Of a stretch of 64,000 bases of DNA, positions 7,868 through 24,060 are shown piece by piece. The notes under the pieces are model-generated. The model saw only the letters and a list, made by a program, of their open reading frames with translations, did not search any database and was not told the origin of the DNA. Position 1 is the first letter of the stretch. Each line of letters begins with the position of its first letter. Source of the stretch: Alkalilacustris brevis (lineage in GTDB: Bacteria > Pseudomonadota > Alphaproteobacteria > Rhodobacterales > Rhodobacteraceae); assembly GCF_003350345.1 (NCBI RefSeq), contig NZ_QNVJ01000053.1, positions 1-64,000 on the forward strand, written 5' to 3'. The translations under genes and the position numbers were made by a program.

Positions 7868-9031
7868 TCAGTAGGCCTTCCCGCGTGCGGAAACCGGCCA
7901 GAGTGTCTCTACCTTGTCGCCACGCACTCCGACATACCAGTCATGCATGTTGCAGGTCGGATCGCAGTGGCCGGGGACGAGGCGGAGCTTGTCGTTGATC
8001 TTCAGCACGCCATCCGGGTCGTCGATCACGCCGTGTTCGTCCGAGCATTTGACATAGCGCACATCGTCGCGCCCGTAGATGAACGGCAGGCCGGAATCCA
8101 CCGATTGCGCCTTCAGCCCCGCATCGCAGATCGCCTTGTCCGGCTTTGCGTGGCTCATCACCGATGTCAGGATGAACAGGGCGTTCTCCCACTCGCCCTG
8201 GTCGATGCGCCTGCCGTCCCTGTCGAGGATGCGCCCGTAATCGGCATCCATGAAGGCGTAGGATCCGCTCTGAAGCTCGTTGAAGACACCTGAGGTCCCT
8301 TCGAAGTAATAGCTTCCCGTGCCGCCGCCGGTGACGATGTCGCATTCCATCCCTGCGGCCTTGAGCGCGCCTGCCGCCTCCTTCGTCATGGCCACCGCGA
8401 TGTCGAACTTCGCCTTGCGGTCCGCGTATCTCTCCAGGTGCTGCATCGCGCCCTGATAGGCCTGCAACCCGGAAAAGGTCAGCCCCGGCGCCGCGTCGAT
8501 CTCTCTGGCGATCTGAACCACCGCTTCGGGTGTCGTGACGCCGCACCGGCCGGCTCCGCAATCGATCTCGACCAGGCACGCGATCGCCATGCCATGCCTG
8601 GTTGCGGCCTGCGAAAGCTCGGCCACATTCGCGATATCGTCGACACAGACGATCATGCGCGCACCCAGCAGCGGAAGACGCGCAAGGCGGTCGATCTTGG
8701 CCGGATCGCGCACCTGGTTCGAGACCAGCACATCCATGATGCCCCCGCGCACGAAAACCTCGGCCTCCGATACCTTCTGGCAGCATACGCCGCAGGCATC
8801 GCCCAGCTCGAGCTGAAGTTTCGCCACATCGACCGATTTGTGCATCTTGCCGTGCACCCGGTGTCGCACCCCCATCTCCTTCACCGCCCGGCCCATCTTC
8901 ACGATGTTTCGCTCGAGCGCGTCGAGATCGAGAACGAGGCAGGGCGTCTGGATGTCGGCCGCGGGCATGCCGGGCAGCGCCGGCACGTCAAAACCAACCT
9001 CAAGGCCATCAAGCGCGCTCATTTCCGTCAT
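7868..9031 (-). CDS. bhcC: Beta-hydroxyaspartate aldolase (BhcC-like), D-threonine aldolase family
   Basis: 387 residues of the fold-III PLP D-threonine aldolase family. The PLP lysine region is RHRVHGKMHKSVDVA near residue 60; VSGGGTGSYYFE-type phosphate loop appears as VTGGGTGSYYFEG; the C-terminal metal-binding pair is in LVPGHCDPTCNMHDWYV (His and Cys). The overall text closely follows BhcC of the Paracoccus beta-hydroxyaspartate cycle, which cleaves or forms (2R,3S)-beta-hydroxyaspartate from glycine and glyoxylate. Encoded downstream of the BhcA-like aminotransferase on the same strand. The dehydratase (bhcB) that normally lies between the two is reduced to a scar, so the full cycle is not encoded here. 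The specific substrate is inferred from similarity and neighbour. Confidence 0.8.
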   Translation of the reverse strand: MTEMSALDGLEVGFDVPALPGMPAADIQTPCLVLDLDALERNIVKMGRAVKEMGVRHRVHGKMHKSVDVAKLQLELGDACGVCCQKVSEAEVFVRGGIMDVLVSNQVRDPAKIDRLARLPLLGARMIVCVDDIANVAELSQAATRHGMAIACLVEIDCGAGRCGVTTPEAVVQIAREIDAAPGLTFSGLQAYQGAMQHLERYADRKAKFDIAVAMTKEAAGALKAAGMECDIVTGGGTGSYYFEGTSGVFNELQSGSYAFMDADYGRILDRDGRRIDQGEWENALFILTSVMSHAKPDKAICDAGLKAQSVDSGLPFIYGRDDVRYVKCSDEHGVIDDPDGVLKINDKLRLVPGHCDPTCNMHDWYVGVRGDKVETLWPVSARGKAY

Positions 9032-9302: not shown

Positions 9303-10496
9303 TCAGGCCGCCCCGGCAACCGCGGGTGCGCCCGTCGTTGACCTGTAATATTCCTGCGCTGCCGCGACACCCGAACCGAGCCGGATCTGAACGCCCATAT
9401 CCGCCATGACCATCTCTGCCGTGGCAATGCCGGACAACGCCATCACGTCGGTCATCATTCCCAGATGGCCGATGCGAAAGACCTGGCCCGCAACATCCCC
9501 AAGCCCCGCACCGAAGGCGACACCGTATACCTCCGCCGCGCGCTGCACGATCTCCTGCCCGTCAAAACCCGGCGGCACCACCACGGCGCTTACGGTGTCG
9601 GAATACAGCTCGGGCGACGCTGCGCAAAGCTTCAGCCCCCAGGCCGAGATCGCATCCCGCACGCCCTGGGCGATCCGGTGATGCCGGGCGAACACGTTGT
9701 CCAGGCCCTCGGCCCGCAGCATTTCGAGGGACTCGCCGAGCGCGGCGATCAACGCGACAGGCGGGGTATAGGGGTATCCGCCCTTGGCGTTGGCTTGCGC
9801 CATGTCGCGGATATCGAGATAGGCGCGTTTCAGTCCTGCCGTTTCGGTCGCTGCCATAGCCTTGGGGCTCAAGGCCGTGATTGCCAGACCCGCCGGCAAC
9901 ATGAACCCCTTCTGGCTGCCCGTCACGGCGCAGTCCACGCCCCATTCCTCCATGCGGAAATCCATCGACGCGATCGAGGAGACGCCGTCGACCATCAGCA
10001 ACGCCGGATGCCCTGCCGCGTCGAGGGCCTGGCGGATTGCAGCCACGTCCGAGCGAACCCCGGTTGCAGTTTCGTTGTGGGTCACGAGCACGGCCTTGAT
10101 CTCATGATCCGTATCCGCCGAAAGTTCGGCCGCGAAGGCCCCGGCCGGAGCACCCTCTCCCCAGGGGCGTTCGATCACCCGGCAGTCGAGCCCATGTCTG
10201 CGGCACATTTCGATCCAGCGCTGCGAGAACATGCCGTGCCGGGCCGCCAGGATCCGGTCTCCGGGCGAAAGCGTGTTGGTGATGACGGCCTCCCACCCGG
10301 CGGATCCGGTGGCTGGAAAGATCATGATCTGCGCATCACGCGATTTCACGATCTCCCTGATCCCGTCAAAGAGGGGAAGGAGCATCTCGGCAAAGGCGGA
10401 TGATCGGTGGTCAATGGTCGGCAGGTCCACCGCCCGGCGCAGCCGCTCGGGAATGTTGGTCGGGCCGGGTATGAATACCGGATTCTGCGTGAACAT
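9303..10496 (-). CDS. bhcA: Aspartate/serine-glyoxylate aminotransferase (BhcA-like), class V
   Basis: 397 residues. PGPTNIPERLRRAVDLPTIDHRS is the class-V alanine/serine-glyoxylate aminotransferase opening; FPATGSAGWEAVI binds PLP phosphate; VDGVSSIASMDFRMEEWGVD holds the PLP Asp; GSQKGFMLPAGL contains the Schiff-base Lys. The sequence resembles BhcA, which transaminates glyoxylate to glycine with aspartate as donor, more than general serine-glyoxylate enzymes. ATG 10496 was chosen because GAGGAGG lies just upstream; an in-frame upstream extension has no site. Head gene of the bhcA-(bhcB remnant)-bhcC unit. Donor preference is inferred. Confidence 0.8.
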   Translation of the reverse strand: MFTQNPVFIPGPTNIPERLRRAVDLPTIDHRSSAFAEMLLPLFDGIREIVKSRDAQIMIFPATGSAGWEAVITNTLSPGDRILAARHGMFSQRWIEMCRRHGLDCRVIERPWGEGAPAGAFAAELSADTDHEIKAVLVTHNETATGVRSDVAAIRQALDAAGHPALLMVDGVSSIASMDFRMEEWGVDCAVTGSQKGFMLPAGLAITALSPKAMAATETAGLKRAYLDIRDMAQANAKGGYPYTPPVALIAALGESLEMLRAEGLDNVFARHHRIAQGVRDAISAWGLKLCAASPELYSDTVSAVVVPPGFDGQEIVQRAAEVYGVAFGAGLGDVAGQVFRIGHLGMMTDVMALSGIATAEMVMADMGVQIRLGSGVAAAQEYYRSTTGAPAVAGAA

Positions 10497-10668
10497 GGGT
10501 GCCTCCTCGCTTTCGGCCAGATTACAGGCTCGACGCCGCCGGCACCATTTCTTTGAAAAGTTTTTTGATATTGCGTTAACCTCCAGAAATGCCAGCCTGA
10601 TCATGTTGATCTGATCCCCGCAAACTGGGTTCCGGTCGCGGCTGGATGAAAGTTCAGTGGCAGGTCAT

Positions 10669-12120: not shown

Positions 12121-12445
12121 CCGTCAAGACGCAAGACCCCCCAGATGTCGTGGTGTTCGCGACAGGCCTCCACGCAATGCCGCCGCCGACGCTTTCGAAC
12201 CCGCCACCGCCACAGGAACTGAACCAGATGCTGCGCATTGCCGGCAAGTTCGACTTGGCAGGGCATGACGATGCACAGCCCCGGCGGCAATGGGCGGGTC
12301 ACACCCCAGCAGGCCGCCGACCCGACGCAGCTGTATGCGTTGATCATACGATATTTCTCACGCTGCGGCTTGCCATTTATGATATTGACCTAAGTCAGTT
12401 ACGGGGTACTCAGAAAAGCATATGCCATCCTTAAAGGATTCGAAA

Positions 12446-12739
12446 ATGAATCGAACGGGAGTTGACAGCATCGAAAAGGTACAACCGAAATCGTCGTTCG
12501 TCTTCTTTGATGACCGTTTCGTCTTTGACCGGGTATCAGGCATGTTCTTCGCCATCAGCGAAGAGGCGGCGCTGATCCTGAGATCGGCGTGGGAAGGGCT
12601 TGATCGTGATGATATCAGGAACCTGTTGATGCAGCGCTTCGAGATCGAGCGCGGCACGGCGATCCGCGATACCGAGCAGTTTCTTGGCAAGCTGAAGGAG
12701 CTCGGCCTCCTCCCGCCGACATGGCGGGATCGCTCATGA
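12446..12739 (+). CDS. PqqD-like RiPP recognition element (RRE) protein
   Basis: 97 residues from ATG 12446, chosen because AAAGGA (12433-12438) is 7 bases upstream; an in-frame ATG at 12422 lacks a site. The run FVFFDDRFVFDRVSGMFFAI gives the three N-terminal strands of a PqqD winged helix, SEEAALILRSAWEG starts the helical part, and FLGKLKELGLLP is the last helix. PqqD domains bind leader peptides and present them to modifying enzymes. The usual radical-SAM or cyclodehydratase partner is absent here. The stop overlaps the ATP-grasp start by ATGA, so the partner is probably the ATP-grasp enzyme. Precursor not identified with confidence. Confidence 0.8.
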   Translation: MNRTGVDSIEKVQPKSSFVFFDDRFVFDRVSGMFFAISEEAALILRSAWEGLDRDDIRNLLMQRFEIERGTAIRDTEQFLGKLKELGLLPPTWRDRS

Positions 12740-13863
12740 AGGGCGCCCCATTGCATCCCGTGATCGCGGTCAGCGGTCTGCATCGCGGTGAAAGCCCGCA
12801 GGCCGGAGGCGCGGTGATCGAGTCGATCCGCTCTCGAATGCCTCAGGCGCGTTTCATCGGCATCAGCTACGACGCGATGGAGACGGGGCTTTATACCCGC
12901 GATCTTGGCCATGTCGATGCGGCCTATCTCTTTCCCTATCCGGTGGCTGGTCCGGGCGAGTTTCTGAAGCGACTGCGAATGGTTCACGAGGCCGAAGGCC
13001 TGTCGCTGATCATCCCGACCCTCGATACCGAACTGGAGAATCTTCTCACCGTGCAGTCCAGCCTTGGTGAAATGGGGATCAAGGTGGCCGTTCCTTCACG
13101 TCCGTCGTTGAACGCCCGCGCCAAGTCGGTGCTCGATCTTCTGGGCAAACGCGCCGGCGTGCCGGTGCCCCGCACCTTTGCGGCAAACGACCCTGTAACG
13201 CTTGCCGACCATGCCGGGAAAATCGGCTACCCCTGCTATGTGAAAGGCGCGCTCTATGACGCCCGCCTCGTCTACAACGAGGCCCAGCTCCATGAGGCTT
13301 TCAACACAATCTCTGCCGTCTGGGGGCCGCCCGTGCTGGTGCAGGAGGCCATCTATGGCGAAGAATACGTTGTCGGCGGCGTCGGCGATGGAAAGGGTGG
13401 GCTGGCCTGCCATTGTGCCATGCGCAAGCTGCTGCGTTCGAAGCTGGGCAAGGCCTATGGCGGCGTGGTGATCGAAGACCCGGTGGTAAACGATATCGCG
13501 CTGCGCCTGGTCAAGGAGCTGAAATGGGATGGGCCGTTCGAGATCGAACTGGTCAAGCCGGCCGGGCGCGAACATCATCTGTTCGAGATCAACCCGCGTT
13601 TCCCCGCCTGGATATCCTTTCCGTCCAAGGTCGGGTGCAACATGCCCGCCTATGTCGCCGAACGGGCGCTCGGGCTTGCGGCTGCTGCTCCGGGCAGAGT
13701 GCCGGCGGGCAAGATGTTCTTCCGTCATTCCGAAGACATGGTGGCCGACATTTCCGATGTCGCAAGGATCATTACCCACGGCGAAACCGAATACACAGTC
13801 GATGGCGGGCTCGCCGTCCCGGAAGCCGAGGAACAGCGGGCCAGAAAACGGGGATCCCCATGA
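12736..13863 (+). CDS. ATP-grasp ligase, PylC/carbamoyl-phosphate-synthase-like
   Basis: 375 residues. The N-terminal pre-grasp Rossmann part runs to about residue 110 (LIIPTLDTELENL is the typical junction of carboxylate-amine ligases such as PylC). The ATP-grasp core follows: KRAGVPVPRTF, YPCYVKGALYDA (ATP lysine), VLVQEAIYGEEY (adenine and hinge) and DGPFEIELVK ... HHLFEINPRFPAW, the metal-binding Glu-x-Asn. It should activate a carboxylate as acyl-phosphate and join it to an amine or other nucleophile. Start ATG 12736 overlaps the RRE stop, and its own stop overlaps the PLP enzyme start, so the three proteins are made together. Substrates are unknown. Confidence 0.85.
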   Translation: MKGAPLHPVIAVSGLHRGESPQAGGAVIESIRSRMPQARFIGISYDAMETGLYTRDLGHVDAAYLFPYPVAGPGEFLKRLRMVHEAEGLSLIIPTLDTELENLLTVQSSLGEMGIKVAVPSRPSLNARAKSVLDLLGKRAGVPVPRTFAANDPVTLADHAGKIGYPCYVKGALYDARLVYNEAQLHEAFNTISAVWGPPVLVQEAIYGEEYVVGGVGDGKGGLACHCAMRKLLRSKLGKAYGGVVIEDPVVNDIALRLVKELKWDGPFEIELVKPAGREHHLFEINPRFPAWISFPSKVGCNMPAYVAERALGLAAAAPGRVPAGKMFFRHSEDMVADISDVARIITHGETEYTVDGGLAVPEAEEQRARKRGSP

Positions 13864-15287
13864 ACGACGCCTATCAAGGCCCGACGATCACCAGCGAGCT
13901 GGGCAGACTGCCGATCGAAGCTGCGGCCGATCGCAACCGCATGTCGCGCGGGACCGCCGGCGAAGCGCTGGAGATGATCGACGGCGCGCCCGTGGTCGAA
14001 TTGTTGCGCGATCACGGCTCGCCGCTTTTCGTGTTCTCCGAAGCCACATTGCGCAGAAAACTGCGGCGTTTTCGCGAAGCCTTCTCCTCTCGCTACAAGA
14101 ACATGAGCTTTGCATGGTCGTTCAAGACCAACCGGCTCGATGCGATCTGCAAGATCATGAAGGATGAAGGCTGGACCGCCGAGGTGGTTTCCGAATTTGA
14201 ATACCAGAAGGCTCGCAGGCTCGGATATGCGGGGTCCGAGATCGTGTATAACGGCCCCTACAAGAGCCGTTCTTCGCTGAAAACAGCCCTCGAAGAAAAG
14301 GCGCTGATCCAGATCGACAATTGGGACGAACTGTCCGTCGTGGAGGAACTGGCGGAAGAACTCGGCGGCACTTTCGACGTGGGATTGCGGGTCTGGGTGA
14401 CCACCGGGCACGCGCCGGTCTGGTCGAAGTTCGGCTTCAGCATGGTCAATGGCGAAGCGCAGCAGGCAGGGCGGCGCATTATCCGCAACGCCCAGTTCCG
14501 GCTGCACACGATCCACTGCCATGTCGGAACCTTTGTTCTTGACCCCGAAACCTATGGCGTAGCCACGCAGATCCTGCTCGGAATGCGCAAGGCCCTGTCC
14601 GACGACACCGGCCATCTGGTGCCATGCCTGAATCTTGGCGGCGGCTTTCCCTCCAACAGTCTGCTTCATGGCATGGCCGGGCCGGCCGAGGTCGTGATTC
14701 CGCCGATCGAGGAATACGCCGACGCGATCATCACCGAACTGAACGCGCTGCCGAAGCGCGAAAGGCCTCTGTTGCGTCTGGAATCGGGGCGCTCCCTGGT
14801 GGACGAGGCCGGCTATCTGGCCACGACGATCGTTGCGGTCAAGGGCGGGCCGCGCCCCGATGCCCCGGCCGAGACGCTGAGTTCGATTGCCGTCAAGGAA
14901 CAGATGCTGCTGTCGGATACCGCCAGGCTCAGCTACGTGCTTGATGCGGGCGTCCACCTTCTCTTCACCGCGAACTGGTTCGCCATCCAGCCCTATCCGG
15001 GCCGGCGCGTGAATTCGATTCCTGTGCCGACCCGGCTGCTGGGATGTCTGTGCATGGAGATCGACGTCATTCGCGATCATGTCGATCTGCCCCGTCTGCA
15101 GACCGGCGATCATCTTACATTCCATCCGGTCGGGGCCTACAATTTCGATCAGTCGATGCAGTTCATCCATCTGCGACCCGCGGTCGTTCTGATCGGCGAG
15201 GACCGGAAGGTGCATCAGATTCGCCGCAAGGAAACACTTGCCGACATCGAGTCTGCCGAGACGCTGCCTGACCATTTATCCGGCTAG
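13860..15287 (+). CDS. Fold-III PLP-dependent decarboxylase (DapDC/ODC-like)
   Basis: 475 residues. Seen motifs of the alanine-racemase-fold decarboxylases: SPLFVFSEATLRRKL; MSFAWSFKTNRLDAI with the PLP lysine (the family's AVKAN); HTIHCHVGTF (HxHVG); LNLGGGFPSN (phosphate loop); RLESGRSLVDEAGYL (family EPGR); and GCLCMEIDVI, the CxxxD catalytic motif. Family enzymes decarboxylate meso-diaminopimelate, lysine, ornithine or related amino acids. The LESGR and the aromatic LFTANWFAIQPYPG segments differ from true LysA, so a specialised substrate is likely. ATGA overlap with the ATP-grasp gene ties it to the RRE operon. Confidence 0.8.
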   Translation: MNDAYQGPTITSELGRLPIEAAADRNRMSRGTAGEALEMIDGAPVVELLRDHGSPLFVFSEATLRRKLRRFREAFSSRYKNMSFAWSFKTNRLDAICKIMKDEGWTAEVVSEFEYQKARRLGYAGSEIVYNGPYKSRSSLKTALEEKALIQIDNWDELSVVEELAEELGGTFDVGLRVWVTTGHAPVWSKFGFSMVNGEAQQAGRRIIRNAQFRLHTIHCHVGTFVLDPETYGVATQILLGMRKALSDDTGHLVPCLNLGGGFPSNSLLHGMAGPAEVVIPPIEEYADAIITELNALPKRERPLLRLESGRSLVDEAGYLATTIVAVKGGPRPDAPAETLSSIAVKEQMLLSDTARLSYVLDAGVHLLFTANWFAIQPYPGRRVNSIPVPTRLLGCLCMEIDVIRDHVDLPRLQTGDHLTFHPVGAYNFDQSMQFIHLRPAVVLIGEDRKVHQIRRKETLADIESAETLPDHLSG

Positions 15288-15307
15288 CCGGGCATCGAGC
15301 CCTGACG

Positions 15308-15326
15308 CCGCAACAGGAAACCACCT
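15308..15326 (+). repeat. Direct repeat, left copy, holding the UT/M23 ribosome-binding site
   Basis: CCGCAACAGGAAACCACCT at 15308-15326 recurs with one extra A at 17512-17531, immediately after the stop of the gene that begins at 15330. The copy contains AGGAAA, the only ribosome-binding site for that gene. Confidence 0.75.
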
Positions 15327-15329
15327 CCA

Positions 15330-17510
15330 TTGGAAGTTTCGTCCACCGAGAACCAGTTTCCGACACCCCGGCAGATGATGGCCGTGGCAGCCCAGCTCTA
15401 CCTGCGCCCGCTCGCGTCGATCCTGCTGATCGGCTCGGCCTGGGTCGGGGCGGGGATGTGGATCCTGCTGCTGCAGCAGCCGCTGCTGGCGATCGTGGCT
15501 TTCCTCGCGCTGAGCATTATCGAGATCATCAGCCAGATCATGGCGCGCGGGGACGCCTCGGTCTTTGGTGCCATGACGCGCGCCAACGCGCTGCTGTGTT
15601 CGCTGGCCGCGGCGTTTCTGATGGGTCCGATGAACCTGCCGTTTCTGCTGCAAGTCGTGCTCATGTTCGGCGCGCTGTGCGTGGGCCTCTACTTCACGCT
15701 GATATTTCGACGCCTGCTCAGGAACACCTCGATTCCGCCGGTAATCCTGCCTTACGTCACGCTGGCGGCGATACTCGCCATCCTCATCCCCGATGGCATG
15801 AGCAATGCAACCCACCACTTCGACTGGCCTGCTGTCGAAGTGGTGGGCTTCATCGACCTTCCCCATGCCTTCCTGCAGACCATGGGCGGGTTTCTCTACT
15901 CGCCCTGGATTCTGTCGGGCGCGGTGATCTCTCTGCTGATACTCGCCTGGTCACCGGCCATGTTCCTTGCCGGGATAATCGGCTGGCTGATGGGCGCCCT
16001 GACGTCGATGGGGCTCGTTGCCTCGGGCTTCGGTTCGTATTGGCCACCGGCCTCCTACAATTTCTTCCTTTCCGGTATGGCGCTCGGCGCTGTGTTTTTC
16101 CTGCCGGGCCCGCGCGGCATGGCCATTGCGGCCTTTGCCGGGATGATCTGCGCGCTCATCTCGGCGGTCTTGATGGTCTATGCCGGACCCTCCGGAATTG
16201 CCTACTTCCCCATCCCTTTCGGTCTCACCCTCATCACCGGCATACTTGCACTGGACAACCCGGCCTTTGCACCGGGTGTGCGGCGCAATCTCACCTGGTT
16301 CGAGCGGCCCGAGGACGCCTGGATCAAGGATGCATGGTCGCGCAAGCGCTGGGGAGAGCTGGGCGAGCTGCTGGCGATTCCGCTTGTCGGCCCGGTTGAG
16401 GTGGTTCAGGGATTCGACAGCAGACCCAGCCACCGGGGCCCCTGGAAACACGCCCTGGATTTCCAGCGCCCCCCGTCGGGTGAGAATCGGGAACGCCCCT
16501 CGCTGTTTGGCGAACCCGTTTATTCCCCGGCGGTAGGGGAAGTGGTGGAAATGCGCAACAATGTCGCAGACAACCCGCCGGGCATGGCGAACTATGGCGA
16601 CAATTGGGGCAATTACCTGGTCTTGCGTACGGGTGCCGGCAATCATGTGCTGCTGGCGCATTTCATGCAGGGGTCCATAGCGGTCGCACGGCGACAGTGG
16701 GTCGATTACACGACCTATCTGGGCGTTGTAGGCAATTCCGGGCGCTCGACGGTGCCGCATCTGCACATGCAGGTGCAGAAGAGCAGCGAGCCAGGGGCGC
16801 CGACACAGCATTTCAGCCTTGCTAACTACCACACATTCGGCGGCGAAAATGGCGACACCCGGATATGGCATGCGGCCGGAACACCCCGCGAGGGCGAAAT
16901 CGTTGAGGGTGCAAGAACCAATCCAGCAGTGTACCAACTGATGACCGCAAGCGGGCCTGGACGCTCGATCTTTACGGTGACGACCAAAGGCGAAGTGCCG
17001 GACTTCGCTGCCTCCAATGGCTCGATCATCGTAGAGGCGCACCTGACGGAAGCCGGGAACCTCGTGTACAGCTCCAGCGAGGGTTCGGAGGCCGAACTGA
17101 AACTGGACGCCGACGCAGCGCGTGTGATCCGCATACAGGGCGCGCCCGGAACGGCTATGGTGATGGCAATGATCGCCGCACCATCGGTCCCCTTTTGTGC
17201 TCAACCCGGCTTGCGGTGGACCGATGTTCTGCCTCTGACAGAATTGCAGACAATGCAGTATCTCAGAAAGGTCCTGTCGCCCTTCGAGGTGCAGGTCTTT
17301 GTAGCTTTCGAGTGCGAGTGCCTGGCCGTCCCGGATTCATTCAGCCCAGCGCTGGTCATCCGCTCGCGCCCGCTGAAGCGCTATCCCGGTTTGCCGATCA
17401 GTTGCACGATGACGGTGGAACCCCTGCGCGACCCGGCGCGTATCGTGGCAGAATATCCAAGCGGCACGGTGACCTATTTAAATGCCTCTTTCGAGCCTCG
17501 CAGCATGTAG
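15330..17510 (+). CDS. Urea-transporter-like membrane domain fused to M23 peptidase domain
   Basis: 726 residues. Residues 1-320 form about 10 membrane helices resembling the UT/SLC14 urea transporter fold (SIPPVILPYVTLA and SYNFFLSGMALGAVFFLPGP match its repeated loop positions). Residues about 345-510 are a LytM/M23-like domain with all three zinc motifs: GPWKHALDF, a middle Asp/Gly loop, and VPHLHMQVQ (HxH). A C-terminal beta-rich region of about 200 residues is unrecognised. The start is TTG 15330 with AGGAAA 9 bases upstream; the first in-frame ATG is inside the expected N-terminus. It follows the PLP gene by 42 bases and likely belongs to the operon. Role unknown: channel plus envelope hydrolase or binding module. 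Confidence 0.75.
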   Translation: MEVSSTENQFPTPRQMMAVAAQLYLRPLASILLIGSAWVGAGMWILLLQQPLLAIVAFLALSIIEIISQIMARGDASVFGAMTRANALLCSLAAAFLMGPMNLPFLLQVVLMFGALCVGLYFTLIFRRLLRNTSIPPVILPYVTLAAILAILIPDGMSNATHHFDWPAVEVVGFIDLPHAFLQTMGGFLYSPWILSGAVISLLILAWSPAMFLAGIIGWLMGALTSMGLVASGFGSYWPPASYNFFLSGMALGAVFFLPGPRGMAIAAFAGMICALISAVLMVYAGPSGIAYFPIPFGLTLITGILALDNPAFAPGVRRNLTWFERPEDAWIKDAWSRKRWGELGELLAIPLVGPVEVVQGFDSRPSHRGPWKHALDFQRPPSGENRERPSLFGEPVYSPAVGEVVEMRNNVADNPPGMANYGDNWGNYLVLRTGAGNHVLLAHFMQGSIAVARRQWVDYTTYLGVVGNSGRSTVPHLHMQVQKSSEPGAPTQHFSLANYHTFGGENGDTRIWHAAGTPREGEIVEGARTNPAVYQLMTASGPGRSIFTVTTKGEVPDFAASNGSIIVEAHLTEAGNLVYSSSEGSEAELKLDADAARVIRIQGAPGTAMVMAMIAAPSVPFCAQPGLRWTDVLPLTELQTMQYLRKVLSPFEVQVFVAFECECLAVPDSFSPALVIRSRPLKRYPGLPISCTMTVEPLRDPARIVAEYPSGTVTYLNASFEPRSM
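15811..15847. repeat. Perfect 14-bp inverted repeat inside the UT/M23 gene
   Basis: CCCACCACTTCGAC (15811-15824), a 9-base loop, then its exact complement GTCGAAGTGGTGGG (15834-15847). It lies within codons for the loop THHFDWPAVEVVG of the membrane domain. No T-run follows, so it is not a standard terminator. Confidence 0.8.
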
Positions 17511-17839: not shown

Positions 17840-19426
17840 ATGTCAAGAATGCCAGGACTTTCCGGAATCGTCATGGGGGCAGCCATGTTGCTGGCTCCTC
17901 TTGGAATCACCGGTGCGGCGAATGCGCAGACGCTTCGCGCCGCCCCGCATGCAAATCTCGAGTTCCTCGATCCCATCTGGACCACGGCCTATATCACGCG
18001 CTCGCACGGGTATCTTGTCTACGACACCTTGTTCGGGATGGACGAGAATTTCGACCCGCAGCCGCAGATGGTGTCGGAATGGAGCGTGTCCGAGGACGGG
18101 CTGTTGTGGAGCTTCACCCTGCGCCCCGATCTGCGCTGGCACGATGGCACCGACGTGACCGCAGCGGATAGCGTGGCCTCGCTGCAGCGCTGGGCGGCGC
18201 GCGATGGCGTGGGGCAGGCGCTGTTTGAACTGGTCGAGGAAATCACCGCCGAAGACGCCACGACTTTCACGATCCAGCTAAGCCATCCTTTCCCGCGGAT
18301 GCTTCATGCGCTGGGCAAGATGTCGTCAAACGTGCCGTTCATCATGCCCGCCCGCATCGCGGCCACGCCGGCCAGCCAGCCTATCACCGACCCCACCGGC
18401 TCTGGCCCGTTCATCTTTGCGCTGGACGAATGGGACCCTGCACGCCGCGCGGTCTATATCCGCAACGACGATTATGTCCCGCGCGACGAACCCACCTCGC
18501 TGACCGCGGGTGCGAAAATACCCTTCATGGAGCGGATCGAGTGGGTGTTTTTCGATACGCATGAAGAGGCGCTTGAGGCAACGCTTGCGGGCGACATCCA
18601 TTTCTTCGAGTCGCCCTCGACCACGGTGACCGACCGTTTCACCGACCAGGAGGTCGCCATCCTCGAGGTGACCGACCCCAGCGGCAATGTCGGCATGGCG
18701 GTTTTCAACCACCTCATAGCGCCGTTCGACAACCCGGATATCCGGCGTGCCGTGCTCATGGCGATGTCGCAGGAAGACTACATGCGCGCCGCGCTCGGCA
18801 ACGAGGATTACTGGCAGACCTGCCGCTCGATCTATCCGTGCGGCACGCCCTATTCGACCGAGACGGACATGACCGGGTTCATGGGCGGCGATGTGGAAAC
18901 CGCGCGCCAGATGCTGGCCGATGCCGGCTATGATGGCACCGCGGTCGTGATCCGGGACCCGGTGGACAGCCCGGTGATCTCGGCCTTTACCGGTGTCACG
19001 CTAGAGCTTTTCGAAGAGCTGGGCATCAATGTCGACCATCAGCCCATGCTCTGGGCCGAGCTAGTCGAAGGCCGCGCCGTCCGCACCAGCGAAGAGGGCG
19101 AGGTGTGGAACATGTTCCACACCTGGTGGATCGCTGATGATCTGAGCGACCCGTTGCGCATCGCCTTTTCAGGGGATCCGGAAACCGGCTGGATCGGCTG
19201 GCCGAACGCCCCGGAGCTTGCGGAGCTGCGCCGCGCCTTCCTACTGGCGGAAACTGACGAGGTTGCCGCCGAGATCGCACAACAGGTTCAGGCCGTGATC
19301 GTGGAGGGCGCGCATTTCGGGATCCTTGGCCAGTTCTTCGAGCCGATCGCCTTCAACGTGGCGATCATGGGTCTGCAGCGACCGATCCAGATGTATTACA
19401 ATCTGGCCATACCGTCCGCGAAGTAA
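17840..19426 (+). CDS. ABC transporter substrate-binding protein, family 5 (peptide/nickel type)
   Basis: 528 residues. A signal peptide (hydrophobic core MGAAMLLAPLGITGAANA, cleavage after ANAQ at about 30) targets it to the periplasm. The SBP_bac_5 fold is clear from LEFLDPIWTTAYITRSHGYL, the strand LLWSFTLRPDLRWHDGT, and DPTGSGPFIF. Length matches DppA/OppA-type proteins. No permease or ATPase genes are adjacent, so it is an orphan binding protein or works with a transporter elsewhere. It lies 330 bases after the UT/M23 gene and ends before a strong terminator. Confidence 0.9.
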   Translation: MSRMPGLSGIVMGAAMLLAPLGITGAANAQTLRAAPHANLEFLDPIWTTAYITRSHGYLVYDTLFGMDENFDPQPQMVSEWSVSEDGLLWSFTLRPDLRWHDGTDVTAADSVASLQRWAARDGVGQALFELVEEITAEDATTFTIQLSHPFPRMLHALGKMSSNVPFIMPARIAATPASQPITDPTGSGPFIFALDEWDPARRAVYIRNDDYVPRDEPTSLTAGAKIPFMERIEWVFFDTHEEALEATLAGDIHFFESPSTTVTDRFTDQEVAILEVTDPSGNVGMAVFNHLIAPFDNPDIRRAVLMAMSQEDYMRAALGNEDYWQTCRSIYPCGTPYSTETDMTGFMGGDVETARQMLADAGYDGTAVVIRDPVDSPVISAFTGVTLELFEELGINVDHQPMLWAELVEGRAVRTSEEGEVWNMFHTWWIADDLSDPLRIAFSGDPETGWIGWPNAPELAELRRAFLLAETDEVAAEIAQQVQAVIVEGAHFGILGQFFEPIAFNVAIMGLQRPIQMYYNLAIPSAK

Positions 19427-19892: not shown

Positions 19893-20783
19893 ATGGTCGA
19901 GTACCCCCTCCCCGTTAACCCTCGTACAGCGGCATCTGCCAGGAGCCGCACCATCGCCACGCAGGTATTCGTGGTTCTTGCGATGGTTCTGTCGCTGCTG
20001 GTGGCGAAGCAGGCCAGCGCGCAGGGCGCATCGCAGCAGGTCAGGTTGCAGACCACCGCTTCTGACCGCGCGGTGCTGAACGCCCGCCTGCATCGCCCCA
20101 ATGCGCGCGGGCCGGCGCCCGCCGTGGTCCTTATGCATGGTTGTGGCGGCTGGCAGCCCGAGGTTCTCGCATCTCTGGAAGAATATGCGCGCTTTCTTAG
20201 TGGCAATGGCTTTGTCGTGCTGAACGTCGACAGCTTCGGCACCCGCAATCGGGCCGGGGGGCGAGTTTGCGGCAGCCTTGGCGAGTTGTCCCGCGCCCGC
20301 GATTACCGCACGCATGATGCCTTTGCCGCGCTCCGGTTCCTGCGCCATCAGACCTTTGTCGATGCCGACAACATCTTTCTTGTCGGTCAAAGCAATGGCG
20401 GCAGCGTCGCCTTGATCTCGGCGTTGTCGCGCACTGCCAGCCGCTTCGGCGGCGAGGGATTCCGCGGTGTGGTGGCGCTTTACCCCTGGTGCGGTGCCGC
20501 CGGCGGCACACGGCTTGATCTGCATTCACCGGTGCTAGTTCTGGGCGGCGGGCAGGATAACTGGGTGCCCCCCGATCAGTGCAGGCGTTTTAGTGGCAAT
20601 GGCCAGGAAGTTGCGGTCAAGGTTTACCCGAATGCTGCGCATTCCTATGACCTGAGGATTCCGATTCAGCGATACATGGGTAATCTGATAGGCTACAATC
20701 CGCAGGCGGCTTCTGCCACCCGAACCGAAATGCTGACGTTCTTCCGTCGCCACCTCGCCGATGGCCGGACCGCGGCTCGCTGA
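19893..20783 (+). CDS. Secreted dienelactone-hydrolase-like alpha/beta hydrolase
   Basis: 296 residues. A long N-terminus with a hydrophobic helix (FVVLAMVLSLLVAKQASA) and an AxA-type cleavage site near residue 43 indicates export. The alpha/beta-hydrolase core shows the oxyanion loop MHGCGGW, nucleophile elbow GQSNGG (Ser), acid in GGGQDNW (Asp) and NAAHSYD (His). Family members hydrolyse lactones or esters; the true substrate is unknown. AGGAA lies 7 bases upstream of ATG 19893. It is a single gene between a terminator and the next promoterless gap. Confidence 0.85.
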   Translation: MVEYPLPVNPRTAASARSRTIATQVFVVLAMVLSLLVAKQASAQGASQQVRLQTTASDRAVLNARLHRPNARGPAPAVVLMHGCGGWQPEVLASLEEYARFLSGNGFVVLNVDSFGTRNRAGGRVCGSLGELSRARDYRTHDAFAALRFLRHQTFVDADNIFLVGQSNGGSVALISALSRTASRFGGEGFRGVVALYPWCGAAGGTRLDLHSPVLVLGGGQDNWVPPDQCRRFSGNGQEVAVKVYPNAAHSYDLRIPIQRYMGNLIGYNPQAASATRTEMLTFFRRHLADGRTAAR

Positions 20784-20923
20784 ACGTGCCTTAGTGTGGC
20801 TAACCGGCAACCTATGGCGGCAATCCATCGCGCAATCCGTCGAACAGCGCGTAAGTCAGGGCGCTCGGTGCGGTTCTCTGATAGGGTGACGCAATTGAGA
20901 CCAACTAAGCATCGGAGATGATC

Positions 20924-21610
20924 ATGGTCCACTTGCGCCGCCTCGCCTTATGTTCCGCGTCCGCTCTGATTCTGGGAGGTTTGCCGGCGCTCGGTCAATC
21001 CTTCGAGTTTATCGGCGGGGTGCGTCAGATCGGCTCGAATGACACGCAGGGTTACGGCACCCTGACCTATGGGCCCGGAGGGCTGGAGGCCGATGGTGTG
21101 CGGCTGCGCGTTACAGGCACCGGGTCCAACTCGCATATGTTCACCACGCGGGTCCGCCAGAGGTCGATGGCGCTGACTGGGGGATACTCCTGGAGGGCCG
21201 GGGACGCAGGAAGCTTTGCGCTGATGGCCGGTCCGACCTATGTCAGGCGAACCGAAGGCGGTGTCTCGACCATTGACGAGGTGGGTATACTGGCTTCGGC
21301 CGAATATGCCGGTTTCGTGGGCGAGCGCGGCTTTGCCGTGGCTTATGCCGAATATTCCAGCCCCGATCGGGCGCTGTTCGCGCGTGCCTTCTATTCGCAT
21401 TACACCACCGACCAGTTCGGGATCGGCCCCGATATCAGCTACCTTTCCGAGCCTGATTTCTCCCGCTTGAACCTGGGTGTGCGCGCAAGCTATGTGGTGG
21501 GAGCGACCGTACTCTCCGCGACGGTCGGACATGCGACCACGAAGAACGATCTGGACCCACCGACCAATCGCAGCCCGTTTCTGGAGCTTCAGGTCGCGAC
21601 GCGTTACTAG
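20924..21610 (+). CDS. BcsS-like outer-membrane beta-barrel protein
   Basis: 228 residues from ATG 20924; GGAG six bases upstream favours it over ATG 20918. A signal peptide (LALCSASALILGGLPALG) precedes a mature chain made of alternating short beta strands with aromatic girdles (SMALTGGYSWRAGDAGSFAL, YFARAFYSHYTT-like stretches) and a terminal aromatic (VATRY), the usual signature of an outer-membrane barrel. The general layout resembles cellulose biosynthesis protein BcsS of alphaproteobacteria, but no cellulose synthase genes are nearby. Function unassigned beyond barrel. Confidence 0.6.
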   Translation: MVHLRRLALCSASALILGGLPALGQSFEFIGGVRQIGSNDTQGYGTLTYGPGGLEADGVRLRVTGTGSNSHMFTTRVRQRSMALTGGYSWRAGDAGSFALMAGPTYVRRTEGGVSTIDEVGILASAEYAGFVGERGFAVAYAEYSSPDRALFARAFYSHYTTDQFGIGPDISYLSEPDFSRLNLGVRASYVVGATVLSATVGHATTKNDLDPPTNRSPFLELQVATRY

Positions 21611-22363
21611 GCCGGTGGCCGGCAGCTGCCCGGAAAACAGTTTCTCGGCGGCGTTCGGCGGCAGCGGAACAGCTCAGATTCGGGAAAACGGCAGGGACCG
21701 CCTGCGAGGCGCCTGCCGTCGCCCCCCCGAAATACGCATGACGGTAGGCTGGTGCGGCCGGACAAGGCACAAGATTGTCCGGCCCCAGGCGCGCCCCTTC
21801 CGCCACTTGCCCTCGGATGCGCGTTCTGCCGATCCGGCTACGGCCGGATTTTTGTTTTTCAAAGGGTTATGCGAACGGGGCTGAGCACTGGCCCGGCCGC
21901 CAGGAGGGCCGGGAGCGGTCTCTCGGGGCCTGATGACTGCGCTGCTTTGGTGAGCTTCTCGGCGTCAGCCTTGCTTCCCGTGTCGGTCCCGTTCGTCCGA
22001 CGGCGACCGGGACCGAACCATTTTCGGGTTCAGTCAAACCGCGCGCGGTGACGATACCCTTCGGGCGCAAGCCGGCGACCACCTGCCGCCAGAGGGCGCG
22101 CGCGATGGGTGAGGCAAGAGCCCTAACCGCATGATCCGGCCAGGGCATCCTGCCTGCGACACGGGCTCACCGAGCCCGCGCAACATGCCGTCAGCGAACC
22201 TAATAAAAACAAATGGCAAGTAATAGGAAACGATATTTGTTCGCATCCGGCGCACGGCCTACTGATTGTCGTGATCACCCGGTCGTCCGCTTGGCTGGGG
22301 TGTCCCGGGCGCGCATCGCGTTGGCATCGGGGCTGGCACATGCTGACAAGGGAGGCTCTGGCC
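21611..22363. other. Long intergenic interval, no gene recognised
   Basis: About 750 bases. Only a hairpin terminator (21832-21859) and an AT-rich patch near 22195-22245 stand out. Short frames on both strands have no domains, and none has a good ribosome-binding site. The AT-rich patch is the likely promoter for the downstream ferredoxin/oxygenase operon. Confidence 0.4.
21832..21859 (+). terminator. Hairpin terminator with T-rich tail
   Basis: ATCCGG (21832-21837) pairs with CCGGAT (21844-21849) and is followed by a T-rich run broken by one G. It is 220 bases past the BcsS-like gene and could serve it or a lost gene. Confidence 0.6.
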
Positions 22364-22711
22364 GTGTCGAGAATATATCTGTGCGATTTCGAGGATCTCA
22401 CCCCGGAAGAGCCGCTTCTTGTGGAGGTCGAGGGGCTGGAGCTTGCGGTCATTCGCAAGGGCGACGAGGTCTTTGTTATCGACAACCAGTGCACGCACGG
22501 GCCCGGCTCGCTGTCGGAGGGGGATCTCGATGGTTACACGATCATTTGTGATTTTCACGATGGGGGGTTCGACATCCGAACCGGCGAACCCGTGATTCCG
22601 CCCTGCATGGTGCCCGTGCGCACCTATGAGGTGGAGCGCGACGCGGGCGCGATCATGATCGCGCGCGAGGCAGAAGCGGTGACCTGCGCGCGCAAATTCG
22701 GCAGCGGCTAA
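22364..22711 (+). CDS. Rieske-type [2Fe-2S] ferredoxin
   Basis: 115 residues from GTG 22364, with AAGGGAGG 8 bases upstream. The Rieske cluster ligands are CTHGPGSLSEG and CDFHDGGFD (CxH-17-CxxH), as in dioxygenase ferredoxins (HcaC/BphF type). It carries electrons from a reductase to the terminal oxygenase encoded 68 bases downstream. The cognate reductase is probably the convergent gene at 25683-26681. It heads the ring-hydroxylation operon. Confidence 0.9.
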   Translation: MSRIYLCDFEDLTPEEPLLVEVEGLELAVIRKGDEVFVIDNQCTHGPGSLSEGDLDGYTIICDFHDGGFDIRTGEPVIPPCMVPVRTYEVERDAGAIMIAREAEAVTCARKFGSG

Positions 22712-22779: not shown

Positions 22780-24060
22780 ATGGCGACCCAGGAGCAAAAC
22801 GACCTTTTGACGCACACCGGCCCCGACACGCCGATGGGCAACCTTATGCGTCAATACTGGATTCCGATTCTGCTGTCGGAAGAGCTGCCCGAACCGGACT
22901 GCCCGCCAGTTCGTGTTCGCCTGTTGTCCGAGCGCCTGATCGCGTTTCGCGACACGCAGGGCAAACTGGGCCTTATCGATGAGTTTTGCGCGCATCGCGG
23001 CGTTTCACTCTGGTTCGGGCGCAACGAGGAAGGCGGCATTCGCTGCCCCTATCATGGCTGGAAGTACAACACCAAGGGCGAATGCGTCGAGGTGCCCTCC
23101 GAGCCCGACGAGAGCGGGTTTTGCAGCCGTATCCGCCTGACCGCCTATTCGCTGGAGGAAAAGGGCGGGATCATCTGGGCCTATATGGGCCCGAAAGAGG
23201 AAAAGCCCGAGCTTCCGGACTTCGAGTGGATGTCGCTCCCGCCCGAGAATGTCTATATCTCCAAGCGCTGGCAGGAGTGCAATTACCTCCAGGCGATGGA
23301 GGGGGGGATCGACTCGGCGCATGTCTCTTTCCTGCATTCGGGTGAACTCAACACTGACAAGCTGCACCAGGGCACGCTGGGCGCGCAGTATCAGCGCGAC
23401 CGAATGCCGAAGTTCGAGATCTACAACTCGCCCGGCGGGCTCTATATCGGCGCACGCCGCACGGCGCCGGACGATCACTATTACTGGCGCATCACCCAGT
23501 GGATCATGCCGTGGTACACGATGGTTCCGCCCTATGGCGACAATGCGTTGAACGGTCACGCCTGGGTTCCGATCGACGATGCGAACAACTTTGCCTGGAC
23601 CTTCACCTATCATCCGACGCGGGCGCTGACCGAGGAAGAGGTGGAAACCATGCGCGACGGCGGCGGTATCCATACAAGGTTGATTCCCGGAACGTTCCGC
23701 CCAGAACTGAACATGGACAACGATTACGGGATGGACCGAAAGGCGCAGAAAGAAGGGCTCTATTATAGCGGTGTGCCGGGAATCGCGATGCAGGATGCCT
23801 CCATCCAGGAAAGCATGGGGCCGATCCAGGACCGCACCAAGGAAAACCTGACCTCCACCGACAATGCCATCATCATGGCCCGTCGCCGGCTGATCAAGGC
23901 CGCCAAAGCGCTTGAAAAGGGGACCCCGCCGCCGGCGCGCGACCCCAGTCATTTCAGGGTTCGGTCGGCGTCCTTCGTGCTGCCATGCGGTCAGGCCTTT
24001 CACGAAGAGCGCCCCGATGCGTTGACCGCCACACCCGGCGTTCATCACACGTCGATCTGA
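22780..24060 (+). CDS. Ring-hydroxylating oxygenase, phthalate 4,5-dioxygenase-like
   Basis: 426 residues. The N-terminal Rieske domain holds CAHRGVSLWFGRNEEGG then CPYHGWKY (CxH...CxxH). The catalytic domain has the bridging and mononuclear iron motif NYLQAMEGGIDSAHVSFLH (D-x2-H-x4-H). The overall plan is that of the alpha-only oxygenases (phthalate 4,5-dioxygenase, class with homotrimer or hexamer), and no beta-subunit gene is present. With the following BenD-like dehydrogenase, cis-dihydroxylation of an aromatic carboxylate is the likely reaction. A GTAAAGGAG ribosome-binding site precedes ATG 22780. The exact substrate is not known. Confidence 0.85.
   Translation: MATQEQNDLLTHTGPDTPMGNLMRQYWIPILLSEELPEPDCPPVRVRLLSERLIAFRDTQGKLGLIDEFCAHRGVSLWFGRNEEGGIRCPYHGWKYNTKGECVEVPSEPDESGFCSRIRLTAYSLEEKGGIIWAYMGPKEEKPELPDFEWMSLPPENVYISKRWQECNYLQAMEGGIDSAHVSFLHSGELNTDKLHQGTLGAQYQRDRMPKFEIYNSPGGLYIGARRTAPDDHYYWRITQWIMPWYTMVPPYGDNALNGHAWVPIDDANNFAWTFTYHPTRALTEEEVETMRDGGGIHTRLIPGTFRPELNMDNDYGMDRKAQKEGLYYSGVPGIAMQDASIQESMGPIQDRTKENLTSTDNAIIMARRRLIKAAKALEKGTPPPARDPSHFRVRSASFVLPCGQAFHEERPDALTATPGVHHTSI

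Follow-up and report, generated by a model that had tools for sequence, protein, structure and literature searches.

BtrJ is the ATP-grasp enzyme of butirosin biosynthesis. According to PMC7857480, BtrK works in the same pathway with a carrier protein of 87 aa, and the substrates of FigC, SbnH, AcsE, MccE and BtrK are all conjugated amino acids. The same source places an acidic residue after the catalytic Cys in diaminopimelate (DAP), ornithine and arginine decarboxylases and a Met in FigC, where helix residues replace the specificity arginine of DAP decarboxylase (DAPDC). The Pfam family PF05402, as described in PMC12710340, contains many RiPP (ribosomally synthesized and post-translationally modified peptide) recognition elements (RREs) unrelated to pyrroloquinoline quinone (PQQ). 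Here we describe a four-gene cassette in the first 64,000 nucleotides of contig NZ_QNVJ01000053.1 from Alkalilacustris brevis (Rhodobacteraceae; assembly GCF_003350345.1), hereafter the window, encoding a PqqD-like protein, an ATP-grasp ligase, a fold-III pyridoxal phosphate (PLP) decarboxylase and a fusion of a urea transporter (UT) domain with an M23 peptidase (genes 1–4; Table 1). The evidence for the cassette as a whole consists of sequence comparison and structure models. As stated in a preliminary description of this DNA, the four open reading frames (ORFs) are present with ATGA overlaps between genes 1 and 2 (12736-12739) and genes 2 and 3 (13860-13863) and a spacing of 42 bases between genes 3 and 4, and Pfam confirmed their families.

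Two sets of loci were compared with the window, the first consisting of 28 fetched loci from the same phylum, all located via the ligase, and the second obtained by scanning a species-genome collection with a ligase alignment, which gave at least 582 candidate stretches, of which 562 were confirmed and 80 kept. Among the 28 phylum loci the decarboxylase was found in 28 and UT/M23 in 23 (tblastn), and a PqqD-like ORF lay upstream of the ligase in all 28 (clustering). ORF clustering gave 26/29 for UT/M23 but included two fragment ORFs (L047, L059), and the tblastn count was preferred. Three of the five loci without UT/M23 end at a contig edge (L047, L054, L059) and two (L049, L051) truly lack it nearby. 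In the 80-locus set the decarboxylase was immediately downstream of the ligase in 80/80, PqqD immediately upstream in 76/80 (a match was present in 77) and UT/M23 immediately downstream in 70/80 (a match was present in 73, three of them displaced or inverted). Two of the three loci with no PqqD match begin at a contig edge (L081, L111) and one does not (L065), and four of the seven UT/M23 misses lie near a contig end (L075, L078, L093, L105); L085 retains approximately 2.3 kb past the decarboxylase without UT/M23, as do L088 and L124 over several kb. These adjacencies uphold the earlier proposal that the genes form a cassette, and the occurrence of single genes with other partners and never as a cassette, which the preliminary description had named as the pattern that would speak against it, was not what was found.

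Record titles spread the 80 loci over approximately ten phylum-level groups, namely Rhodobacteraceae and other proteobacteria, Verrucomicrobia, Planctomycetes, Armatimonadetes, Bacteroidetes, Cloacimonadota, Riflebacteria, Myxococcales, Chitinispirillaceae, Ignavibacteria/Chlorobi, Melainabacteria and one 'Aquifex' bin, with the taxonomy in metagenome-bin titles being unchecked. Genome searches scored the best few candidates per genome (at most four for the ligase and two for UT/M23), such that genome misses may be overstated, and detected the ligase in 1/149 genomes of the order (the window's own), 3/198 of the family (alignment query, E<=1e-50), 37/398 of the phylum, presumably Pseudomonadota (E<=1e-20), and 27/296 of Larkinella's phylum, presumably Bacteroidota (E<=1e-80). 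The cassette is thus patchily distributed among close relatives and more frequent in other parts of the phylum, and the ligase occurs in about 1 in 11 sampled genomes across the two phyla. The UT/M23 profile matched 44/398 phylum genomes (E<=1e-30), which by reading of the match spans comprised 36 with the fusion or contig-edge pieces of it and eight with UT alone or M23 alone; 32 of the 37 ligase genomes were also among these 36, compared with a chance expectation of about 3.3. The ligase occurred without UT/M23 in G209, G269, G308, G319 and G339 and UT/M23 without the ligase in G193, G220, G315 and G316, the last of which holds a contig-edge cassette including the decarboxylase (L150). The loci number 109 in all (the window plus both sets), length filters left 93 UT/M23 proteins, 99 decarboxylases and 108 ligases, and PqqD sequences were trimmed to their last 90-100 residues before alignment. 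In the 84 loci where all four proteins were available, their distance matrices correlated with Spearman values of 0.66-0.82 in five pairs, which 0/300 permutations reached. Overall, the cassette is real and widespread, far beyond chance. Three further alignments comprised 28/29 ligases (A1), 41/68 UT/M23 proteins from the window and the 80-locus set (A2) and 29 sequences made up of 27/29 gene-5 ORFs together with those of L096 and L139 (A3).

The decarboxylase gave Pfam scores of 103.2 bits to Orn_Arg_deC_N and 37.9 bits to Orn_DAP_Arg_deC, its closest solved structure was the N-citrylornithine decarboxylase 7kh2 followed by DAP decarboxylases, and its top NCBIfam model was FslC (191 bits vs a cut-off of 500) with lysA next (189 vs 298). 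K89 and C398 are kept, so that the enzyme looks intact by its sequence. The FigC-like Met after the catalytic Cys was found throughout, the pair C398-M399 being invariant in 99/99 cassette decarboxylases together with W373, and position 374 holds Tyr (91) or Phe (8). Where DAPDC has its helix arginine, the cassette enzymes carry W373 and Y/F374 instead. A role as DAP or ornithine decarboxylase was rejected on these residues; the genome encodes, elsewhere, a LysA-like protein with Cys-Glu and the helix Arg and an ornithine decarboxylase (ODC)-like paralogue with Cys-Asp, both labels having been assigned from motifs. FigC-type citrate contacts are not retained either: with equivalent positions counted by hand on the alignment, FigC H357 corresponds to I401 and R387 to Q431 in 99/99, and N389 to M433 (85 proteins) or Leu (14). 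Since these contact residues are replaced, citrate is an unlikely partner, and the substrate is best read from the sequence as an amino acid whose side chain is masked by a non-citrate group. The Cys-Met subtype lies near conjugate decarboxylases and therefore supports an order of ligation followed by decarboxylation, such that the earlier suggestion of an ATP-grasp enzyme that joins and a PLP enzyme that decarboxylates is plausible and now better supported (Cys-Met in 99/99; PMC7857480).

The ligase shares 31-40% identity with 27 homologues, in which K170, E269, E284, N286 and R288 are invariant, and looks catalytically intact by sequence. Its best solved relatives by profile were 2pn1 and CarB, with weaker matches to VanA and PylC. 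An assignment as a graspetide ligase was rejected, as the best families were PRK12767/CarB-like and no precursor was found.

Gene 1 scored 33.8 bits against PF05402 (cut-off 23.4), which places the 97-residue protein in the PqqD/RRE family as had been predicted, and seven of eight relatives were likewise over the cut-off, with L032 under it at 21.0. The PqqD domain closes an ORF of more than 260 aa in 11/28 loci. TetR_N was over its cut-off in both long ORFs scanned, and PqqD was over in one (L037) and under in the other (L032). Such TetR-PqqD fusions stand ahead of the ligase at L037:8413-9231, L032:7084-7884 and in similar loci, and might act as transcription factors that sense through a PqqD-type domain.

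That the peptide or peptide-like scaffold envisaged in the preliminary description is a ribosomal peptide encoded with these genes was not borne out. Clustering of short ORFs from the 80 loci (45 largest clusters) showed no family reaching past nine syntenic Verrucomicrobia contigs or the Rhodobacteraceae-like group, and k-mers of intergenic short ORFs were shared no more in sense than in antisense in 72/80 loci, a comparison that omitted eight of the nine syntenic Verrucomicrobia loci. One longer shared intergenic string was discarded as a precursor because it belongs to the C-terminus encoded by an upstream gene in five related Bacteroidetes loci; this neighbour ends with the AIPYYTWCNRGSNQMQVW string in L095, L102, L112, L117 and L134, approximately 1 kb upstream of the ligase, and presumably resembles the end of a GH127-type glycosidase. 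Scans of the flank proteins recognised no radical S-adenosylmethionine (SAM) or PEARL (peptide aminoacyl-tRNA ligase) enzyme. No precursor encoded with the modifying enzymes was thus found, a distant or very short one being still possible, and with the PqqD/RRE membership the RiPP reading is only half supported by sequence.

Gene 4 matched UT (PF03253) at 66.6 bits (cut-off 25) and Peptidase_M23 (PF01551) at 43.7 bits, and is composed of a UT-fold channel (residues ~15-310), an M23 domain (~346-490) and a C-terminal beta-rich region. Its model (pLDDT, a per-residue confidence score, 87.8) gave Foldseek matches to UT structures (target TM-score ~0.62-0.76) and to LytM/M23 structures, so that both Pfam and structure comparison place the channel in the UT fold. 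The fusion profile aligns over nearly all of dvUT, and the number of membrane spans should therefore equal that of dvUT. H368, D377, H444, H477 and H479 are invariant in 93/93 UT/M23 proteins and match the zinc ligands and catalytic His expected of M23, with the zinc binders among them assigned from the family. Both termini of UT proteins are cytosolic, and with loops assigned from this generally known orientation the mean number of Lys and Arg residues was 7.8 on the inside (N-terminal side) compared with 2.1 outside, the inside being higher in 92/93 with one tie; the window protein has 8 inside and 0 outside. The linker to M23 carries 5.8 more Lys and Arg on average, and a hydrophobic stretch before M23 (19-residue mean >=1.6) was found in 0/93. 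The M23 domain is predicted to be cytosolic because of this charge bias and the absence of a hydrophobic linker stretch, which might make it a processing peptidase tethered to the channel rather than a hydrolase of the cell wall, and the earlier view that the fusion places a product in the envelope is doubtful on the same pattern. A hydrophobic stretch after residue 366 occurs in 9/93.

Partner genes that the preliminary description had overlooked accompany the cassette, a barrel and a tetratricopeptide repeat (TPR) protein in most other groups and an SBP_bac_5 substrate-binding protein (SBP) with a dienelactone hydrolase in Rhodobacteraceae. Of the 60 loci outside Rhodobacteraceae that extend 7 kb or more downstream, 56 have a TPR-profile match somewhere in the locus, although the profile may catch unrelated TPR proteins. 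The gene usually lying between UT/M23 and TPR clusters in 32/80 loci, and its model from L092 (pLDDT 88.9) has a helical TPR-like start followed by a barrel of approximately 14 strands with weak Foldseek matches to the OmpG, FadL, PelBC and BcsC barrels. Among the 28 loci and the window, 19 carry an ORF of approximately 305 aa that is barrel-like by reading and 23 carry a TPR-type ORF; the one member of the former that was scanned had no Pfam match. The seven Rhodobacteraceae-like loci (L061-L067) gave no barrel/TPR match. All seven have homologues of the SBP_bac_5 protein (53-91% identity, on either side and strand) and of the dienelactone hydrolase (53-83% identity, on differing sides and strands) near the cassette, and this variation in side and strand favours a functional link over plain synteny. 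The linked SBP showed sub-cut-off NCBIfam similarity to nickel, glutathione and opine binders. As a stand-in for the barrel in Rhodobacteraceae, a 230-aa ORF at 20918-21610 (+), secreted and barrel-like by reading and with no Pfam match, was rejected: it was left out of the parts because three of the seven loci have it (L061, L064 and, as a fragment, L065).

These data can be interpreted as a two-part cassette in which a conjugate would be built, decarboxylated and handled at the envelope by a channel-peptidase, a reading of sequence and models that we consider about evenly balanced between right and wrong. Genes 1–3 would form a cytosolic biosynthetic unit, where the ATP-grasp enzyme may join an amino acid, via its side chain or a carboxylate, to a partner held or delivered by the PqqD-like protein, and the fold-III PLP enzyme would then strip the alpha-carboxylate from the conjugate and not from the free amino acid. 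The second part, consisting of gene 4 and elsewhere also the outer-membrane barrel and TPR protein, would handle the product at the envelope, with the tethered M23 peptidase, on the predicted cytosolic face, first freeing or trimming the product and the UT-fold channel then passing it, small and mostly uncharged, across the inner membrane. What the data show is which genes are present, how they are ordered and how widely they occur, together with the folds, the catalytic residues and the residues that set the decarboxylase subtype; we infer the order of ligation and decarboxylation, the role given to PqqD, the direction of transport and the substrate of the peptidase. A bolder claim, that this is a new widespread pathway class in which a small molecule is built by amino-acid addition and decarboxylation on a PqqD-held scaffold, is freed by M23 in the cytosol and exits via the UT domain of the same polypeptide as a channel-coupled releasing peptidase, is tentative and in our judgement would sooner fail than hold.

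Several observations weigh against the two-part conjugate pathway. The ligase barely exceeds the ATPgrasp_Ter cut-off (PF15632; 29.6 bits vs 29.1), and neither a precursor nor a conserved short ORF was identified. The topology depends on loops assigned from the usual UT orientation, M23 enzymes are normally extracytoplasmic with a cytosolic one being unusual, the UT pore is expected to be too narrow for a peptide, and 15/93 UT/M23 ORFs have an N-terminal extension of more than 45 residues. Cys residues occupy both of two columns of the M23 part in 52/93, one in 30 and none in 11 including the window; the two co-occur about as often as chance pairing, and a disulfide is possible in some relatives judging from their sequences. 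The linkage also has exceptions. Genes 1–3 stand without a nearby UT/M23 at L049 and L051 (G209, G308), and conversely L148 and L149 (G193, G220; genomes 96-97% complete) have UT/M23 with a TPR ORF, and in L148 also a barrel-type ORF, without genes 1–3 nearby and with no ligase in the genome at E<=1e-20, so that in these two genomes the envelope part may work with a different partner. L088 and L124 come from genomes in which UT/M23 lies at a different place from genes 1–3 (L151, L152), adjoining a gene-5-like or TPR neighbour. Because these three pairs of loci show each part apart, genes 1–3 and UT/M23(-barrel-TPR) form two units that can come apart although they are mostly found together.

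Alternatively, the fusion may serve envelope or peptidoglycan remodelling, where an inverted UT would place M23 in the periplasm to cut peptidoglycan and, together with the TPR protein and barrel, build a route across the envelope by which the ligase/decarboxylase product is exported. M23 enzymes mostly act as wall hydrolases, the zinc and catalytic residues are invariant here, the paired Cys residues and the frequent TPR protein with its weakly OmpG/FadL/PelBC/BcsC-like barrel partner would fit, and the titles of the 80 loci name groups with an outer membrane; however, the charge bias indicates a cytosolic C-terminus in 92/93, the linker lacks a hydrophobic stretch and barrel/TPR matches are missing from the seven Rhodobacteraceae-like loci, which leaves this a minority possibility. 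A true RiPP pathway, in which PqqD would recognise the leader on a ribosomal precursor whose gene lies elsewhere, the peptide end would be elaborated by the ligase and decarboxylase and M23 would cut off the leader within a peptidase-containing exporter-like fusion, would suit a membrane channel with a cytosolic peptidase attached, and is in keeping with membership in a Pfam family holding many PQQ-unrelated RREs (PMC12710340) and with MccE, a member of the same decarboxylase clade that acts on a peptide product (PMC7857480). We nevertheless consider it unlikely, as no short-ORF family extended beyond local synteny, sense k-mers were no more alike than antisense ones, the TetR-fused PqqD of some loci suggests a sensing role and peptides are unlikely to fit the UT pore.

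Least probable of these explanations is a metallophore or siderophore, whereby the ligase and FigC-like decarboxylase would make a citryl-type chelator and SBP_bac_5 recapture the metal complex. The closest solved decarboxylase and the nickel-, glutathione- and opine-binder similarity of the linked SBP point in this direction, but a citrate-based siderophore is disfavoured by the lost citrate contacts (I401 and Q431 in 99/99; M433 in 85, Leu in 14), no NIS (NRPS-independent siderophore) synthetase was recognised among 16 proteins scanned, and a UT channel is ill-suited to a charged chelator.

Table 1. Genes of the cassette and its probable accessories, with positions in the window.
Feature	Position	Strand	Basis and remarks
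Gene 1, PqqD-family (RiPP-recognition-element-like) protein, 97 aa	12446..12739	+	PF05402; ATG at 12422 is a possible alternative start
Gene 2, ATP-grasp ligase, CarB/PRK12767-like, 375 aa	12736..13863	+	PF15632, homologue identity, solved relatives
Gene 3, alanine-racemase-fold PLP decarboxylase, 475 aa; K89, C398-M399	13860..15287	+	PF02784/PF00278, 7kh2
Gene 4, UT/M23 fusion, 726 aa, TTG start	15330..17510	+	PF03253+PF01551, model, Foldseek
SBP_bac_5 periplasmic binding protein; probable accessory, Rhodobacteraceae only	17840..19426	+	PF00496, kept near cassette
Dienelactone-hydrolase-family protein; probable accessory with SBP in Rhodobacteraceae	19893..20783	+	PF01738, kept near cassette

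The genome containing the window (3.48 Mb in 103 contigs) has one PqqD match (E<=0.001), one UT match and three PF02784 decarboxylases. NCBIfam cut-offs were reached by none of the four cassette proteins nor by ten relatives and partner proteins scanned. PADLOC models of known anti-phage defence systems gave 0 matches to the four cassette proteins at E<=0.001, and a phage defence role was rejected on this basis. Viral contigs contained one candidate stretch, with no relative confirmed, and plasmid records gave five weak matches to the ligase, none spanning 80% of it, and 22 to UT/M23, where among the 20 matches listed only the M23 part was covered. Upstream of the cassette lie two genes of the beta-hydroxyaspartate cycle with an epimerase gene between them, encoding BhcC (3-hydroxy-D-aspartate aldolase; 7868-9031, -; 740 bits vs a cut-off of 690) and BhcA (aspartate-glyoxylate aminotransferase; 9303-10604, -; 706 bits vs 650), with no homologues of either in the other cassette loci (tblastn, E<=1e-4). 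Downstream of the cassette region, a small Rieske protein (22271-22711, +) is encoded beside a Rieske oxygenase with a LigXa-like C-terminal domain (22780-24060, +).

In summary, the cassette is kept across approximately ten phylum-level groups with the ligase in about 1/11 sampled genomes of two phyla, and its product should therefore be useful. The locus supplies a defined pair of enzymes for which a prediction can be tested, namely a decarboxylase for conjugated, non-citryl amino acids, and joins a urea-channel fold to a peptidase whose predicted compartment is unexpected. Should the chemistry hold, the cassette would yield decarboxylated amino-acid conjugates from a new source and give a PqqD-like domain a new use, and if the releasing-peptidase reading is true, a wall-hydrolase fold would have been turned into a cytosolic biosynthetic enzyme. 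As for the interpretation offered in the preliminary description, the RRE family, the cassette as a unit and, by residue evidence, the ligation and decarboxylation chemistry are supported; an encoded peptide scaffold is not supported and the envelope placement is doubtful. No paper on the four-gene set, and none pairing any two of urea transporter, peptidase M23 and PqqD, was found in the literature within reach, which left most subscription papers and bioRxiv outside, and the operon seems unnamed.

By membership tests, the cassette falls outside RiPP clusters in the usual sense, citryl siderophore sets and graspetide sets alike; by analogy it may work like BtrJ/BtrK or the scaffold-peptide pathways. 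With FigC/FslC and their relatives SbnH, AcsE, MccE and BtrK it shares the Cys-Met pair and the lack of an acidic residue binding a free side-chain amine (PMC7857480), whereas its citrate contacts are replaced and its partners are PqqD, ATP-grasp and UT/M23 instead of an NIS synthetase. BtrJ/BtrK of butirosin biosynthesis follow the same logic, in which an ATP-grasp ligase is paired with a fold-III PLP decarboxylase and assisted by a small protein; the small protein here is PqqD-like and not an acyl carrier, no carrier was found, and UT/M23 has no counterpart there. The PQQ and PEARL scaffold-peptide pathways have in common with the cassette a PqqD-family domain, a peptidase and, if the proposed chemistry applies, a small molecule built on a peptide end and then cut off, in contrast to which no scaffold peptide was found here, nor was a radical SAM or PEARL enzyme recognised in the scanned flanks. 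The bacterial and animal urea channels dvUT, UT-A and UT-B share the UT fold with gene 4, which differs from them in carrying a fused, active-looking M23 peptidase.

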